Below, piece after piece: positions 9,265-28,232 of a stretch of DNA of 35,927 bases. A program made the position numbers and the translations under genes. Location: assembly GCA_029211065.1 (NCBI GenBank), contig JARGFK010000043.1:1-35927 (forward strand), in the 5' to 3' direction. Numbering within the stretch: position 1 is the stretch's first letter; each line of letters begins with the position of its first letter. The notes below the pieces were generated by a model. The model was given only the letters and a program-made list of their open reading frames with translations. It searched no databases and was not told the DNA's origin. Source of the DNA: Desulfobacterales bacterium (GTDB lineage Bacteria > Desulfobacterota > Desulfobacteria > Desulfobacterales > JARGFK01).

Positions 9265-10320
9265 CTATCCCATTTTAATCTCTTTCTCAACCTCAGCCTC
9301 GTCCTTTTTTTGCCTTCCCACCTCACTCTCGTCCCTCGCCCCTCGTTCTTCGTCACGCGTCTTTCGCCCCACGTCCTTCGTCTTTCGTCCCCTCGTCCTT
9401 CGTCCCTCATCACCTCTATCTTTTAAAGCCTGCATCGTATTGACTCCCAGGGCGCAGACAATCAATACCATGCCGGCTGCCTCAAAAAGGGTGGGCTGTT
9501 CCCCGAGTTGAATCCAGGCGGCGAGCACCCCCGCCACCGGCGTGGCGAGCGTTCCCAGACCGGCCGAACCGGCGGAAAGGCGGCTTAAGGCATAAAACCA
9601 GAGCAGCCATGCGATGGCGTTTCCCGGGACAACACTGTAAAAAAGGGCGGCTATGAACGGAAGGGACCAGGTAATGGGCGGTGAAGAAATAAAAAGGGTA
9701 ATCAAGACAAGCGGAATACAGCCGAACAGCATCTGCCAGGTTGTATAGGAGAGCAGGTCCAGAGAGGTTTTTTGCTGGAGCCTTTTTGAGATGATGATGC
9801 CCACGGCCCAGGACACGCTGGACAGAAGGGCCAGTCCCTTGCTGAACAGGGCGTCGTTGAAGCTGAAGGGCATGAGGATAAACAGCAGCCCCGCCAAAGC
9901 AATGACAACGCTCAGCCACTGCAATCTTCGCAAGCGTTCCCCCAAGACCAGCCAGGCCAGCAGCAGGACCCAGAACGGCATGGCGTAGTTTAAGACCGCT
10001 GTTTTACCGGCGCCGCCGTTCACAATGGCCCAGGTTGAGAGCCCGTAAAACCCGCCTAACTGGAGCGAGCCCGAGAGAAATGTTCCCGGAATTTCCTTGG
10101 GCAGAATCGGCTTTCCCAGCCAGACAAGCACCGCCAGGAGACAGATCCCTCCCAGAAAAAGCCGCAATGCCGCATAGTCGAAAGGGGCCGCATACTGAAC
10201 GGCCACCTTCATGACGACCCAGTTATAGCCCCAGAGAAAGACAAGTGCGATAAGCGCCAGTACCGCCCTCCCCTGGGGAGACAGACGCTGTATTGCTGAA
10301 TCAAAATATTTTTTTAGCAT
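9265..10320 (-). CDS. EamA (DMT superfamily) transporter with repeat-derived C-terminal tail
   Basis: A 351-residue inner-membrane protein with two EamA domains and about ten membrane segments (for example LVFLWGYNWVVMKVAV near the start). SAGSAGLGTLATPVAGVLAAW lies in the second domain. Such proteins export amino acids or other small metabolites. The start at 10320 (MLKKYFDS) is chosen because the fold begins there; a longer frame to 10515 adds non-family sequence. The last roughly 45 residues, from about DRGDEGRR, are highly charged and are encoded by the CGTCCCT-type heptamer repeat at 9330-9410 and flanking sequence. The ancestral stop was probably lost and the gene now runs through the repeat. 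Confidence 0.83.
   Translation of the reverse strand: MLKKYFDSAIQRLSPQGRAVLALIALVFLWGYNWVVMKVAVQYAAPFDYAALRLFLGGICLLAVLVWLGKPILPKEIPGTFLSGSLQLGGFYGLSTWAIVNGGAGKTAVLNYAMPFWVLLLAWLVLGERLRRLQWLSVVIALAGLLFILMPFSFNDALFSKGLALLSSVSWAVGIIISKRLQQKTSLDLLSYTTWQMLFGCIPLVLITLFISSPPITWSLPFIAALFYSVVPGNAIAWLLWFYALSRLSAGSAGLGTLATPVAGVLAAWIQLGEQPTLFEAAGMVLIVCALGVNTMQALKDRGDEGRRTRGRKTKDVGRKTRDEERGARDESEVGRQKKDEAEVEKEIKMG
9330..9410. repeat. Degenerate tandem heptamer repeat, consensus CGTCCCT
   Basis: Eleven consecutive units with a strict CG start: CGTCCCT, CGCCCCT, CGTTCTT, CGTCACG, CGTCTTT, CGCCCCA, CGTCCTT, CGTCTTT, CGTCCCCT, CGTCCTT, CGTCCCT. All keep the seven-base register except one eight-base unit. 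It overlaps the 3' end of the EamA gene. The same heptamer recurs at 12997-13024. Confidence 0.85.
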
Positions 10321-12967: not shown

Positions 12968-12996
12968 GGTGACTCACAAAAATGTTTTGTCCCGCT

Positions 12997-13024
12997 CGTC
13001 CCTCGCCCCTCGTCCCTCGTTACT
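12997..13024. repeat. Second copy of the CGTCCCT heptamer repeat
   Basis: Four units in register: CGTCCCT, CGCCCCT, CGTCCCT, CGTTACT. It fills the gap between glpD and the RhlE-like helicase and matches the units at 9330-9410. Confidence 0.75.
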
Positions 13025-13054
13025 TCTTCCCAGCTTCCCCGGCCCCCATTTTTT

Positions 13055-23955: not shown

Positions 23956-24768
23956 TTAATCGATCCATCTGAATGTTGCATACACCGGAAAGTGATCTGA
24001 GGGGTAGACTCCTGCGAAAAGGCTTTCCACCACACGGTATTCCACAGGCGCAATCTGGCCGCGGTATAGGATCCAGTCGATGTGTTCGCCGTTTGTGCGC
24101 CCGTTAAAACCGTGGTAGGTACCCGGAAACGGTTTTTCGGCGGCATTTTTATACCAGGGCGCGGTAGGCGAGGATTTCTGGCCGCCCCCTGTGAAAATCC
24201 TGTAGCAATTCTGTTCGGGGGTGGCATTGAAATCGCCCAACAGGATTGCCGGCGCCTGTGAAGGCAGCTTGGCCAGGTGCTCCATTATCAGGAGAGCACT
24301 TTTGGTCTGCACCTCTTCTGCAAAGTCGAAGTGGGTGTTGGTGCAGATCAAGCGTCGATGTTTGTTTGCAAACATGCCAATGGTGCACTGGCGCGGCCAG
24401 CGACTATCCTTAAACCGGCTGGGGATCGAAGGTGTTGGGCTGAGGAAAAGATGCTGGTAAAATGTCGAATCCCATTCGCTTTTAAAGAAAATGACATTGT
24501 GCTGCCAATTGGGCGGGGCGGGGCTGTACTTTCCGATACACTCGTAGCCGGCCAGAATATCCGTCAAGAAATCGATTTGAAAATCGTTAGCCTCCTGCAG
24601 ACCGATAAAATCAGGGCGATATTTATTGAACAGCGCAGGAAGCCCCTTCTTTCGATGGTCCCAGCTGTTGGCACCGTCATCGGCCAGGCCGAAACGAAGA
24701 TTAAAGGTCAATGTCGAAAAACCTTCTGCGGCACCGGTCATTATTTTGATATTATCCGTATCGCTCAT
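23956..24768 (-). CDS. Endonuclease/exonuclease/phosphatase family protein
   Basis: A 270-residue metal-dependent phosphohydrolase of the EEP superfamily. Motifs in order: STLTFNLRFG, DFIGLQEAN with the metal-binding Glu, CTNTHFDF with His, ILLGDFNATPEQ with the Asp/Asn pair, HIDWILYRG, and the catalytic end SDHFPVYATF. No signal peptide, so probably cytosolic. Substrate (nucleic acid, sugar-phosphate or lipid headgroup) cannot be read. No strong ribosome site. It stands alone between two repeat-bearing gaps. Confidence 0.88.
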   Translation of the reverse strand: MSDTDNIKIMTGAAEGFSTLTFNLRFGLADDGANSWDHRKKGLPALFNKYRPDFIGLQEANDFQIDFLTDILAGYECIGKYSPAPPNWQHNVIFFKSEWDSTFYQHLFLSPTPSIPSRFKDSRWPRQCTIGMFANKHRRLICTNTHFDFAEEVQTKSALLIMEHLAKLPSQAPAILLGDFNATPEQNCYRIFTGGGQKSSPTAPWYKNAAEKPFPGTYHGFNGRTNGEHIDWILYRGQIAPVEYRVVESLFAGVYPSDHFPVYATFRWID

Positions 24769-24795
24769 TTAATATGCTGAAGGGGGTGATGGGGT

Positions 24796-24854
24796 CGTCC
24801 ATTTATCTCATGGTTGATTTGCTTATCAGGTGTCTACCGATAATGCAATGGGCG
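24796..24854. repeat. Palindrome-ended repeat, copy A
   Basis: It begins CGTCCATT (24796-24803) and ends AATGGGCG (24847-24854), with TTATCAGGTG inside (24823-24832) followed by TAAT. The same layout recurs at 26022-26071 in the same orientation, on the other side of the 322-residue gene. Confidence 0.65.
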
Positions 24855-24883
24855 AACATTCCGAGTCCATTGTGGTTTTTTTC

Positions 24884-24911
24884 TTGACTCGTATGGGTGC
24901 TTCTCTATAGT
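24884..24911 (+). promoter_or_regulatory. Sigma-70-type promoter for the 322-residue gene
   Basis: TTGACT at 24884-24889, 16-base spacer, TATAGT at 24906-24911. It gives a leader of about 110 bases. Early in this leader CAGGT (24927-24931) pairs with ACCTG (24940-24944), followed by TTTTT, an attenuator-like arrangement with a short stem. Confidence 0.6.
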
Positions 24912-25027
24912 CTTTCTCCGGAAAAGCAGGTTCTTATCGACCTGTTTTTGTTCCAGTGGAAATCATTCCTATGGATTCTGTCGGCACATATATTTTCGGT
25001 ACAAATCATTAAAAAGGAGATCTAAAA

Positions 25028-25996
25028 ATGACGACAAGCGACTCGGTAGAAAAAAAGCCTCTATGGTTGTTAATCGAAGAGAAGATCCTCGGGCTCGATT
25101 CCCAGGACCTTTCAGGGGAAAGCCTGGAAGCATCGATTCAACGGATTGCGGGTGAACTTGACAATACAGGCTTCAATGTTTCGCGTTACGGCGGCCATAT
25201 GCTTCAATTGAGATGGGCAATGAATGAAGCCCACAAAGTCGGAAGGCCCCTTCTGAGGGATTTCAACACTGCGATCGCTGCCCTTACGCTGGAGGACGCG
25301 GCCAACCCCTATTCTGCAACGGATAAGCTCATCAACGACATCGGCAAAACGTGGCCGGAACTCCAAAAATCCGAACGCAGACCGGATGTGATACGGATGG
25401 TCGAGAAGACAAAACTCGACCTGCTCACTGCCAAGGCAAAAGGCCTGCCGAACGATGAAGGCATCCGATTGCTCATTGAGGAAAAAGTGGCTCCCGAGGC
25501 GATCACCAGGGCGCTGGACATTACCGCAGAAAAGCTGGAACAGATCAACGCCTTGATAAAAAAGGAGCGCGCAGAGAAAGCAAGGGTAGCCGCCCTGCTC
25601 GAGGCGGTAGCGGACAAGTCCAGCGAAGAAAAAGTGAAGCACCTTTTTACGAACAACGTCTCCGAAAAATTGATCATCGCGATGGCACAAGTTGACCAGA
25701 ACGCGATCAATAGTGTCAAACAGACAATGGAAGCGGAGCTAAAGGAAAAACAAAGGCTGGAAGCAGAAGAAGCCGCCCGGAAAAAGGAAGTGGCGGCCGG
25801 ACCGGCGCTGGATGATATCCCGCCGGACAAGATGCTCGAATACATTGAGTCCATCCGCGAAATCATGGAATTCAGCGATCAAGAGAAAGAAATCAGAGTG
25901 ATGTGCGAGCAAAGCTCCATCCCCAAGAGCCTTGTGGACATTGCCGTTTCGGAGCCCGGCAGACTGGATGAGCTCGAAAAAAAGGCGCAGGGATAA
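25028..25996 (+). CDS. Uncharacterised 322-residue helical protein, repeat-flanked
   Basis: I do not recognise a family. The protein is soluble, very rich in Lys, Glu and Ala, and almost wholly helical. Residues 1-125 look globular (LSGESLEASIQRIAGELD, RYGGHMLQLRWAMNEAH). About 180-260 is probably coiled coil (KKERAEKARVAALLEAVADK, EAELKEKQRLEAEEAARKKE). The C-terminus has a further helical unit (LEYIESIREIMEFSDQEKEI). There is no signal or membrane segment. AAAAAGGAG gives a strong ribosome site, and a good promoter stands at 24884. The gene with its promoter is bracketed by similar palindromic repeats at 24796 and 26021. A structural or adaptor role is possible. Confidence 0.8.
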   Translation: MTTSDSVEKKPLWLLIEEKILGLDSQDLSGESLEASIQRIAGELDNTGFNVSRYGGHMLQLRWAMNEAHKVGRPLLRDFNTAIAALTLEDAANPYSATDKLINDIGKTWPELQKSERRPDVIRMVEKTKLDLLTAKAKGLPNDEGIRLLIEEKVAPEAITRALDITAEKLEQINALIKKERAEKARVAALLEAVADKSSEEKVKHLFTNNVSEKLIIAMAQVDQNAINSVKQTMEAELKEKQRLEAEEAARKKEVAAGPALDDIPPDKMLEYIESIREIMEFSDQEKEIRVMCEQSSIPKSLVDIAVSEPGRLDELEKKAQG

Positions 25997-26020
25997 CAGG
26001 CATATGCTCTCCGTGTTTTA

Positions 26021-26072
26021 ACGTCCATTGGATTATTGATTATCAGGTGCGCAACAGTAATCCAATGGACGT
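26021..26072. repeat. 15-bp perfect inverted repeat, copy B
   Basis: ACGTCCATTGGATTA (26021-26035) pairs exactly with TAATCCAATGGACGT (26058-26072); the 22-base loop carries TTATCAGGTG. It resembles copy A at 24796-24854 in ends and core. It sits 24 bases after the 322-residue gene, where it might also stop transcription. Confidence 0.8.
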
Positions 26073-26206: not shown

Positions 26207-27379
26207 ATGACCCCTGCCTATTCATCGAAAACCCATATCTCATATTCCCCCAACAAGATTGTCCTGGGTGTCGATTCCGCCGCGCGAACCGCCGCTGAAG
26301 TGCGCCGGCTGGGAGGTTCCAGGGTTCTACTCGTGACAGACCCCGGCGTCATCCAGGCCGGTCTGACCCGGACAGTTGAAGCTTCATTTCAAGCCGAAGC
26401 CATCCCCTATGTTCTATATGACCGGGTTGAACCCGAACCGCCCTCCCGGATCATCGATCAGGGCGCCCGGATTTTCAAGTCTGAGGACTGCGACCTGGTG
26501 GTGGGTATCGGCGGCGGCAGTTCCCTTGATGTCGCCAAGGGAATTTCGATCCTCAGCGCTAATGGGGGCTCTATCCTGGATTATATCGGTGCGGATCTTG
26601 TTCCCAAAAAAGGGGCGCCGATGGTCCTGCTGCCCACAACCGCGGGCACGGGCAGTGAGGTCACGCGGGTCCTGGTCATGACGGACGAACGGCAAAATAC
26701 CAAGAATGTGGTCTTCACCCCTTTTGCCCTGGCCGACACGGCCATCATCGACCCTCGCTTGACCGTGAGCATGCCGCCGCATGTTACGGCCGACACCGGC
26801 ATGGACGCCCTGGTACACGCTGTTGAAACCTATGTTTCCATGAATGCGACGGAATTCTCGGATGTCTGGGCTGAAAAGGCCATCGCGTTGATCGGCCGCT
26901 ATCTGCCGGTGGCCTGGGCCAAGGGCGCCAACCTTGAAGCCCCTTATTACATGTCCTTAGGGGCCACTTTGGCAGGCCTGGCTTTTACCAGCGGCGGTCT
27001 GGGGGCGGTTCACGCCCTGGCTTATCCCCTGGGAACGGAATATCACATGACCCACGGCCGGACCAATGCCATTATGCTGCCGCATGTCATGCAGTTCAAC
27101 CTGTCCGGAAATCCTGAAAAATACGCCGTGATTGCCGCTTTGCTGGGGCGGGAGATTGAAGGGCTTTCACCGATGGCGGCGGCCTTGCTGGCCGTGGAAG
27201 CGGTACTGGAACTGCAGGCGTCTATTGACGTGTCCAGTCGCATGCGTGATTATGATATTCCGGAAACAGACCTTTCCAAGCTGACGGAAGGCGCCATGAA
27301 ACAATCCCGTCTTTTTATTCCCAACCCGAGAGATCTGACGAAAGACAATGTCCGCGCCATATATCAGGAAGCGTTCTAA
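26207..27379 (+). CDS. Iron-containing (group III) alcohol dehydrogenase
   Basis: A 390-residue NAD(P)-dependent metal alcohol dehydrogenase. Motifs: VVGIGGGSSLDVAKG for cofactor binding, PTTAGTGSEVT, the metal-site helix DTGMDALVHAVETYVS with Asp and His, GGLGAVHALAYPLG and HMTHGRTNAIMLPHV with the remaining His ligands. Length is normal for the family. The start at 26207 has GAGGAG upstream; the frame reaches back to 26036, but that part overlaps the repeat. It could reduce aldehydes or oxidise primary or secondary alcohols. It ends at a strong bidirectional terminator shared with the TSUP gene. Confidence 0.9.
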   Translation: MTPAYSSKTHISYSPNKIVLGVDSAARTAAEVRRLGGSRVLLVTDPGVIQAGLTRTVEASFQAEAIPYVLYDRVEPEPPSRIIDQGARIFKSEDCDLVVGIGGGSSLDVAKGISILSANGGSILDYIGADLVPKKGAPMVLLPTTAGTGSEVTRVLVMTDERQNTKNVVFTPFALADTAIIDPRLTVSMPPHVTADTGMDALVHAVETYVSMNATEFSDVWAEKAIALIGRYLPVAWAKGANLEAPYYMSLGATLAGLAFTSGGLGAVHALAYPLGTEYHMTHGRTNAIMLPHVMQFNLSGNPEKYAVIAALLGREIEGLSPMAAALLAVEAVLELQASIDVSSRMRDYDIPETDLSKLTEGAMKQSRLFIPNPRDLTKDNVRAIYQEAF

Positions 27380-27429
27380 ATTGAAGAACCCCGCAGTTCC
27401 GGCATGGCGGGACTGCGGGGTTCTTCAAT
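27380..27429. terminator. Bidirectional rho-independent terminator
   Basis: ATTGAAGAACCCCGCAGT (27380-27397) pairs perfectly with 27412-27429, an 18-bp GC-rich stem with further pairing towards the loop. It fills the whole gap between the convergent ADH and TSUP genes, beginning directly after the ADH stop and touching the TSUP stop codon. The flanking AATT gives short T tails on both strands. Confidence 0.85.
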
Positions 27430-28232
27430 TACAGTACTGAAACCAACATTCTGACACTTAAAATGATCAGCAATACGGCAAATACCTTTTTCAGGGTCGA
27501 TACGGGTAATCTGTGGGATAACCTGGCGCCATAGGGCGCTGCGAAGAAGCTGGTTGTGGAAATGAGCAATGCGGCCGGCAAATAGACGAAACCGAACGTA
27601 TATTCCCCCGGCGACGTATTTGCCCAGCCATTTACTAGATAGCCGATGGTTCCCGCGATTGAAATCGGAAAGCCGATGGCGGCCGAGGTGCCGATGGCTT
27701 TTTTTATTTCGACATTCTGCCATGTAAGGTAGGGTACGGTTAATGCGCCGCCGCCGATGGAGACGAGCGCGGATATAGCGCCGATTCCGGAACCCGCTAT
27801 AAACAATCCGGTATTTCCTGCCAACTCTCTGCTTGGCTTTGGCTTTTTGTTTAGAAACATTTGACTGGACACATACGCCATGAACAAGGAAAAAAAGATC
27901 GCAAGATAAAATGAGCTCAAGTAAGAGGCGATAAACGTAGCGAGAAAGGTTCCCAAGATAATGCCGATGGACATCCCCCTGACGACTTTCCATATGACGC
28001 TGCTCCTTGAAGCGTGCGCACGGAAACTTGAAAAGGTGGTGATTATCATGGAAGCCATTGATGTACCCAAAGCTAAATGAACCACAGTATCGACGGATAC
28101 ACCATTGATTAGAAAAATCGACGTCAGCACCGGCACCATTATTCCGCCGCCGCCGACGCCCAATAGCCCTGCCATAAACCCGACGAAACAACCGATCAGC
28201 AAAAATAACAATATCAATTCAATTTCCAACAA
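27429..28232 (-). CDS. TauE/SafE family (TSUP) anion exporter
   Basis: A 267-residue inner-membrane protein with about eight hydrophobic helices. Both halves carry the family's Gly-rich motif: MAGLLGVGGGGIMVPVL and SALVSIGGGALTVPYL. Family members export sulfite, sulfoacetate or other small anions. The start is TTG at 28232 with GAGG eight bases upstream. The nearest upstream gene on the same strand is the flavoprotein, which ends at 28346, so co-transcription is possible. A link to sulfonate metabolism via the ComDE-like genes 9 kb away is only speculative. Confidence 0.9.
   Translation of the reverse strand: MLEIELILLFLLIGCFVGFMAGLLGVGGGGIMVPVLTSIFLINGVSVDTVVHLALGTSMASMIITTFSSFRAHASRSSVIWKVVRGMSIGIILGTFLATFIASYLSSFYLAIFFSLFMAYVSSQMFLNKKPKPSRELAGNTGLFIAGSGIGAISALVSIGGGALTVPYLTWQNVEIKKAIGTSAAIGFPISIAGTIGYLVNGWANTSPGEYTFGFVYLPAALLISTTSFFAAPYGARLSHRLPVSTLKKVFAVLLIILSVRMLVSVL

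Follow-up and report, generated by a model that had tools for sequence, protein, structure and literature searches.

Orphan genes that move horizontally are common, and the usual explanation for them is a plasmid, a phage, an integron or a transposon. An integron gene cassette is a small movable unit of one gene, which can enter unrelated contexts, and its attC site has the core motif RYYYAAC...GTTRRRY. MITEs and cargo-bearing non-autonomous transposons are units without a transposase of their own. Among short palindromes, the CGTC-tagged REPs are described as 20–40 bp long with stems of 8–9 bp and loops of 4–5, as present in many copies and as having no dedicated transposase found (PMC3733652). 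Here we report a single gene in a Desulfobacterales genome. We think it probable that this is an accessory gene which moves as a free-standing transcription unit and has repeatedly reached new chromosomal sites, by gain or by a change of place. The basis for this reading lies in sequence comparison and has four parts: the lack of synteny, a transfer signal relative to the backbone, one unoccupied site, and a block with a right edge common to three sites. The features of the window (the whole stretch of DNA analysed, 35,927 nucleotides) that concern the unit are as follows.

23956..24768, minus strand: upstream neighbour, endonuclease/exonuclease/phosphatase family (PF03372, E 6e-19); outside the unit
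24796..24854, plus strand: left palindrome-ended repeat, 59 nt; ends CGTCCATT / AATGGGCG, with one G-U pair
24844..25027, plus strand: upstream block common to other copies (blastn of upstream regions), with no orthologous neighbour shared
24884..24911, plus strand: promoter, sigma-70-type, TTGACT-16-TATAGT (hexamer match)
24912..25027, plus strand: 5' leader of about 116 nt, conserved in seven aligned loci
25014-25019: ribosome-binding AAGGAG, upstream of the 322-aa ORF
25028..25996, plus strand: ORF of 322 aa; product acidic and all-helical, its family undescribed (no match to a known family above cut-off)
26022..26071, plus strand: right palindrome-ended repeat, 50 nt; ends CGTCCATT / AATGGACG; 17-bp stem; tail only TCCTTT
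26207..27379, plus strand: downstream neighbour, iron-containing alcohol dehydrogenase (family match); outside the unit

The sequence-only reading had called the 322-aa product a protein of no known family, and this was borne out in every library searched: no relative lies above cut-off in Pfam, NCBIfam, PHROGs, PADLOC or PDB sequences. Matches below cut-off scatter, with VipA in 7 of 31 members (best E 0.006) and also TerB, ANAPC4 and FliG; a muconate cycloisomerase model reaches E 0.0008, but with 18.6 bits against a cut-off of 335. The gene is not named in the titles or abstract openings searched. Within its own lineage it is patchy, being present in 64 of 389 genomes of the class, 10 of 96 of the same order and 4 of 395 drawn from the phylum (its own genome included in each count). 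A search of genome contigs gave 38 named loci, mostly in Desulfobacterales or Deltaproteobacteria bins; the carriers include the isolates Desulfosarcina widdelii and Desulfatitalea alkaliphila as well as three Nitrospirota bins, with proteins at 49–52%. Relatives are either strong or absent, and an alignment of 51 copies has a mean column identity of 70%, with lengths near 322. Some copies (L165 and L124) have an N-terminal extension of EE(T/I)EKVEE-like repeats, and in L036 and L038 the reading frames are disrupted.

Over the clustered loci, no orthologous neighbour recurs with the gene, except in one near-identical pair (L020/L021; L037 had no gene tag in this clustering, owing to ORF picking). 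Two neighbour clusters do recur, in 8 loci and in 3 loci, but their members are only distantly related within large families and vary in position; the 3-locus cluster consists of TetR regulators that are 21–22% alike in the closest pairs listed, and the other cluster is 22–39% alike. A TetR-family regulator lies 0.6–1.7 kb downstream of the gene in L017, L019 and L025. In a set of 57 loci (one per genome), an ORF lying no more than 6 kb away is shared by 4 of the 28 pairs with protein identity of at least 85%, 2 of 120 pairs at 75–85%, none of 414 at 65–75% and 3 of 1,030 below 65%; some flanks are short, so these sharing counts are lower bounds, contig ends (for example at L014, L038, L164 and L176) can hide shared neighbours, and the window locus itself (L001) entered the comparison with only 1.5 kb on each side. 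In one of the four sharing pairs at 85% or more, L125/L126, what is shared is a non-colinear fragment; without that pair, 3 of 28 share a neighbourhood. Within genera, 2 of 49 pairs have colinear neighbourhoods (L120/L123 and L130/L131), and one further pair has a single distant ORF in common; L171 and L176 had no gene identity in this comparison, probably from the same kind of cause as for L037. Both L120/L123 and L130/L131 are cases of a vertical stay at one site; the gene dS of 0.44 in L120/L123 is within the range of its neighbours. L026 and L179 have upstream genes in common, yet their copies are only 56% alike.

No vehicle is visible in the surroundings. Among the Pfam matches listed for 121 neighbours, no family is matched by more than 4, and no integrase appears among the families matched by at least 2 of the 121 (matches listed for 25 of 172 families). 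Linkage to tRNA insertion sites was considered and dropped: tRNAs occur at 3 of 33 loci (L026, 416 nt upstream; L030, 132 nt past the stop; L022, about 1.5 kb upstream), two of them within 500 bp of the gene. Carriage by viruses, phages or plasmids was dropped as well, since searches of phages, plasmids and viral contigs found no relative of the 322-aa protein there.

The clearest instance of a change of site comes from two genomes of the same genus, G735 and G754. Their copies (L125 and L126) have 95.7% protein identity, a dS of 0.19 and fourfold sites that are 87.7% alike, whereas the seven flanking genes of the G754 site have dS of 0.58–1.20 relative to G735 and fourfold sites only 43–68% alike. 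The five genes upstream and the two downstream of the G754 site have colinear counterparts in G735:C6, where 2.4 kb of unrelated DNA lies between the two groups and the gene is absent; the G735 copy sits on another contig. Elsewhere on the same G754 contig, about 14.5 of 18 kb is colinear with G735:C6, the break being about 16 kb present in G735 only, which indicates that the chromosome as such is not scrambled. This evidence for an unoccupied site comes from one genome pair and from rearranged ground: next to the unit, G754 has a duplicated gene end and about 5 kb of additional DNA, and no colinearity is seen past the second gene downstream. The duplicated part at L126 is the 3' end of a gene for 254 aa, present on either side of the roughly 5 kb that was not found at the G735 site (−624 to −327 and at about −6.1 kb); this DNA is another insertion next to the moving gene. 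The upstream neighbour of L125 is missing in G754. No unoccupied site was found in Desulfosarcina when one flanking protein each of L120 and L122 was sought in eight genomes.

An old gene of purely vertical descent, its synteny erased by chromosome shuffling in fast-rearranging genomes, could account for the scatter in neighbourhoods. Gene identity rises with that of the markers rpsB and tsf (Spearman's ρ = 0.51, 528 pairs; 33 rows, 3 of them without tsf, and L036 identities too low because that copy is frame-shifted), syntenic vertical pairs exist, and the GC content of the gene tracks that of its flanks (r = 0.77, 66 loci, some second fetches included). Against this stand the dS of the G735/G754 copies, far under that of a largely colinear backbone, the patchy presence in the class (64 of 389) and the phylum draw (4 of 395), and the discordant pair L031/L045, from distant lineages, in which gene dS is 0.05 and rpsB+tsf identity 66.7%. 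The reverse also occurs, in that L032 and L033 have markers that are 95.3% identical and genes that are 64.8% identical. The gene tree disagrees in part with the rpsB+tsf tree (both leave out L021, L035 and L046–L049), while identity follows the markers overall; vertical descent and transfer thus both occur. Most of the genomes are draft bins, so mis-binned contigs could mimic transfers, above all for L029, L031 and L045. On balance, we regard vertical descent with shuffling as an unlikely account of the whole pattern.

The DNA that accompanies the gene gives the unit an outline. In the window, the start of the upstream block varies with the partner (−184 for L016, −172 for L046, −158 for L015), and the block runs to the start codon. 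In G735 and G754 the shared block extends from about −250 to +250 around the ORF and holds this single gene, with no transposase within the unit; the protein has no transposase match above cut-off either (TnpW falls below cut-off in 1 of 31). The same right-hand end sequence recurs at L126, L167 and L165, which are three unrelated sites: L167 is from another genus than L126, with a protein 94.1% identical, and L165 is without about 95 nt inside the block, yet has the same end. At up to 3 mismatches, the right-edge motif (ACAAATCGGCAGTTA-like) is confined to those units across the fetched loci, which partly overlap and amount to about 1.4 Mb; allowing 4 mismatches adds one place, in L195. The left edge is less sharp, differing between pairs by up to about 70 nt.

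A right edge common to three unrelated sites is what a non-autonomous element with cryptic ends, moved in trans by a host transposase or integrase, might be expected to leave. This explanation also seems improbable to us, given that neither terminal inverted repeats nor a target duplication was seen by eye at L126, the best-resolved site (its left edge is inexact), that the left edge varies and that other families show different extents. A bolder version is a one-gene mobile element of a new kind, with a defined right end and no known transposase or recombinase, whose own tandem-HTH-like product would recognize the DNA of the unit or a host recombination protein and so bring about relocation; we put this forward as the most remote of the readings considered. 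In the reading that we favour, an accessory gene gained at or shifted to new sites, the unit would consist of the upstream regulatory region, the leader, the one gene and a short 3' region. It would reach new sites within and between genera of the Desulfobacterales and probably between classes of the phylum: ordinary DNA transfer would carry it between cells, illegitimate recombination or a trans-acting enzyme would insert it, and selection would presumably retain it.

Attention was first drawn to the gene by the sequence-only reading, which saw it as bracketed by two palindrome-ended repeats in the same orientation. Both repeats are present at 24796–24854 and 26022–26071, with the ends, core and orientation described. 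The two intergenic regions align with a local score of 20.5, reached by 2 of 5,000 dinucleotide shuffles; the same score is also reached by 2 of 646 arbitrary overlapping segment pairs with the same spacing in the window, so the similarity of the repeats is by itself not overwhelming. The window has TTATCAGGTG at two places, where 0.03 would be expected. As RNA, the right repeat is predicted to form a hairpin of 17 bp around a 16-nt loop (−23.7 kcal/mol, z = −6.2, 0 of 200 shuffles), and the left repeat folds more weakly (−15.7 kcal/mol, z = −2.2). The conserved block is bordered by them on both sides: the left one ends where the shared upstream sequence begins, with an overlap of at most its last 11 nt, and the right one starts 26 nt past the stop.

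The repeats do not accompany the orthologues and were found at the window site only. No third copy was found in the 4.94-Mb genome (32-nt core, up to 3 mismatches). Among fetched loci, TTATCAGGTG is missing in 194 of 197 and the palindrome pattern of the right repeat in 189 of 192, the remaining three in each case being the window site itself; the 32-nt core is found nowhere else at up to 4 mismatches, and one match with 5 mismatches lies in L191. Repeats that are missing at orthologous loci are not general moving parts, and the idea that they move the unit, as a general mechanism, was rejected on their absence at the other fetched loci, being known as they are from the window genome only. Orthologues in fixed synteny without the repeats had been named as the pattern that would speak against a cassette; the repeats are absent at the orthologues, and synteny is not fixed either. 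What survives of the proposal of a movable or losable cassette is the behaviour of the unit, supported by the lack of synteny and by G735/G754, and what falls away is the repeats as the means.

For the window genome at least, excision or loss of the cassette by recombination between the 50–60-nt repeats might still be envisaged, as they border the conserved block on both sides and direct repeats are slightly more frequent around copies of the gene. Significant direct repeats surround it at 4 of 32 loci with enough flank (the window, L025, L041 and L044), each with a different sequence. A wider count gives 6 of 56 loci, after removal of second fetches of one place and of short flanks, against 2 of 86 control genes (P = 0.04, one-sided Fisher test, with a threshold picked after the scores were known), an excess that is weak at most. 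The window repeats are 75% alike over 36 nt, which is too diverged for easy homologous recombination, and other copies move without such repeats; we therefore rate this explanation as very unlikely. The best explanation of the repeats is that they belong to the local DNA at either edge of the unit and are not a mobility signal. The right one is perhaps the terminator hairpin of the gene: several copies (L120, L122, L129 and L131) have, by eye, a terminator-like hairpin right after the stop, and the palindrome at 26022–26071 occupies the same place, with a poor T tail. It was not called in a terminator scan, and Rfam gave no match in the window at gathering score.

Other repeats were seen in passing. 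Two Nitrospirota bins (L041 and L044) have repeats on both sides of the gene that are GGTAGTGTCAGGTCTACGCATTTCAG-like and TGCCCCGTTAGACTC-like, and GTCAGGTCTTGAGA lies just downstream of the gene in L016, L018 and L036. In L013 the gene is bracketed by the arms of an imperfect inverted repeat, long enough to span about 180 alignment columns and lying some 400 nt before and 300 nt after the gene; it may be what is left of another element. In the window, imperfect CCCTCGTCC-type repeat units at 9323–9417 and 12990–13027 are alike and 3.6 kb apart, and at 27379–27430 two adjoining 26-nt inverted arms, 92% complementary, lie between convergent ORFs and look like a shared terminator.

The transcription signals ascribed to the unit fared unequally. 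The promoter said to lie between the repeats is there as a TTGACT-16-TATAGT pair, one match in the stretch where shuffles predict 1.6 by chance. A TTGAC(T/C)C...TA motif occurs in 14 of 59 upstream regions (one per genome; 20 of 71 when second fetches are included) compared with 11 of 1,480 random 260-nt segments, and upstream regions without it carry other sequence. The attenuator-like leader is unsupported and was dropped, because the consensus fold of seven leaders reaches only −3.8 kcal/mol and the sole terminator-like site (24784–24800) lies upstream of the promoter.

A full-length structure model of the protein is all helical (pLDDT 86.9, pTM 0.61). The description of a coiled-coil protein holds for one long helix (residues 224–257) and not for the rest of the model. 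Profiles of residues 139–196 and 194–262 match each other (probability 95, E 3e-8), which identifies them as tandem repeats; the C-terminal stretch 262–322 matches neither unit in profile comparison. The HTH-like parts of the tandem units are residues 139–181 and 197–238, and the C-terminal half modelled alone has a pLDDT of 88 and a pTM of 0.53. In VIA comparisons with the unit 139–181, 43 of the 50 chains listed are DNA-binding or sigma-factor proteins by their titles, but the matches are all weak (Z up to 5.7), and the best Z for the full-length model is also 5.7. Foldseek searches of PDB and BFVD gave nothing at or below E 0.001; for the C-terminal half, paired domains fill the top two rows, at E 0.66 and 0.85. 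Acidity is common to all 51 proteins (pI 4.4–5.0) and to the HTH-like units themselves, and this charge argues against simple DNA binding. We therefore lean, tentatively, towards an adaptor or regulator that binds protein rather than a classical DNA binder. Such a product, soluble, acidic and helical, might work on its own, and its two tandem HTH-like units would bind a conserved host partner, a suggestion that we make with low confidence.

Patchy distribution with gain or loss, together with the disrupted frames in L036 and L038, would also suit an anti-phage or stress gene that spreads as defence genes do. We find this rather doubtful, and less probable than either shuffled vertical descent or movement in trans: no PADLOC family matches the protein at E 0.1, and no viral, phage or plasmid copy was found. 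Some of the 121 neighbours match PADLOC models (MTase_II, mads and others, among the matches listed for 25 of 103 families), from which we make no claim of a defence island either way; several such models match ordinary enzymes too.

If the favoured reading is right, a strongly conserved, undescribed protein changes its chromosomal place in sulfate reducers together with the DNA upstream of its gene and with no visible vehicle, in one well-resolved case within a chromosome that is for the most part colinear. It would then offer a good handle on the movement of single genes in these bacteria and on a function that they acquire again and again. New here are the family, the common right edge and the relocation, which is well resolved against a largely colinear background.

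The described systems resemble the locus in part. As in CGTC-tagged REPs (PMC3733652), the window repeats are palindromic and start with CGTC, but they are 50–59 nt long, the right copy has a 17-bp stem and a 16-nt loop, and there are two copies in 4.94 Mb at up to 3 core mismatches rather than a high copy number. Like MITEs, the unit is without its own transposase; unlike them, it carries a conserved gene for a protein and has no terminal inverted repeats or target duplication that could be seen. Residues 139–181 superpose on HTH units of transcription factors, sigma factors, the serine recombinase Sin, the paired domain and the DNA-binding domains of Tc3/Mos1 (Z 4.0–5.7, mostly over 40–47 residues), whereas the 322-aa protein as a whole is acidic, with no catalytic domain recognized and no significant match. 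By eye, the common right edge has an attC-like GTTAAGT in L165, L126 and L167 do not fit the core, and no attC pair was seen at the three loci. The likeness to integron cassettes is that of a single gene found as a small unit in unrelated contexts; the difference is that many copies here carry their own upstream regulatory region and stand alone.
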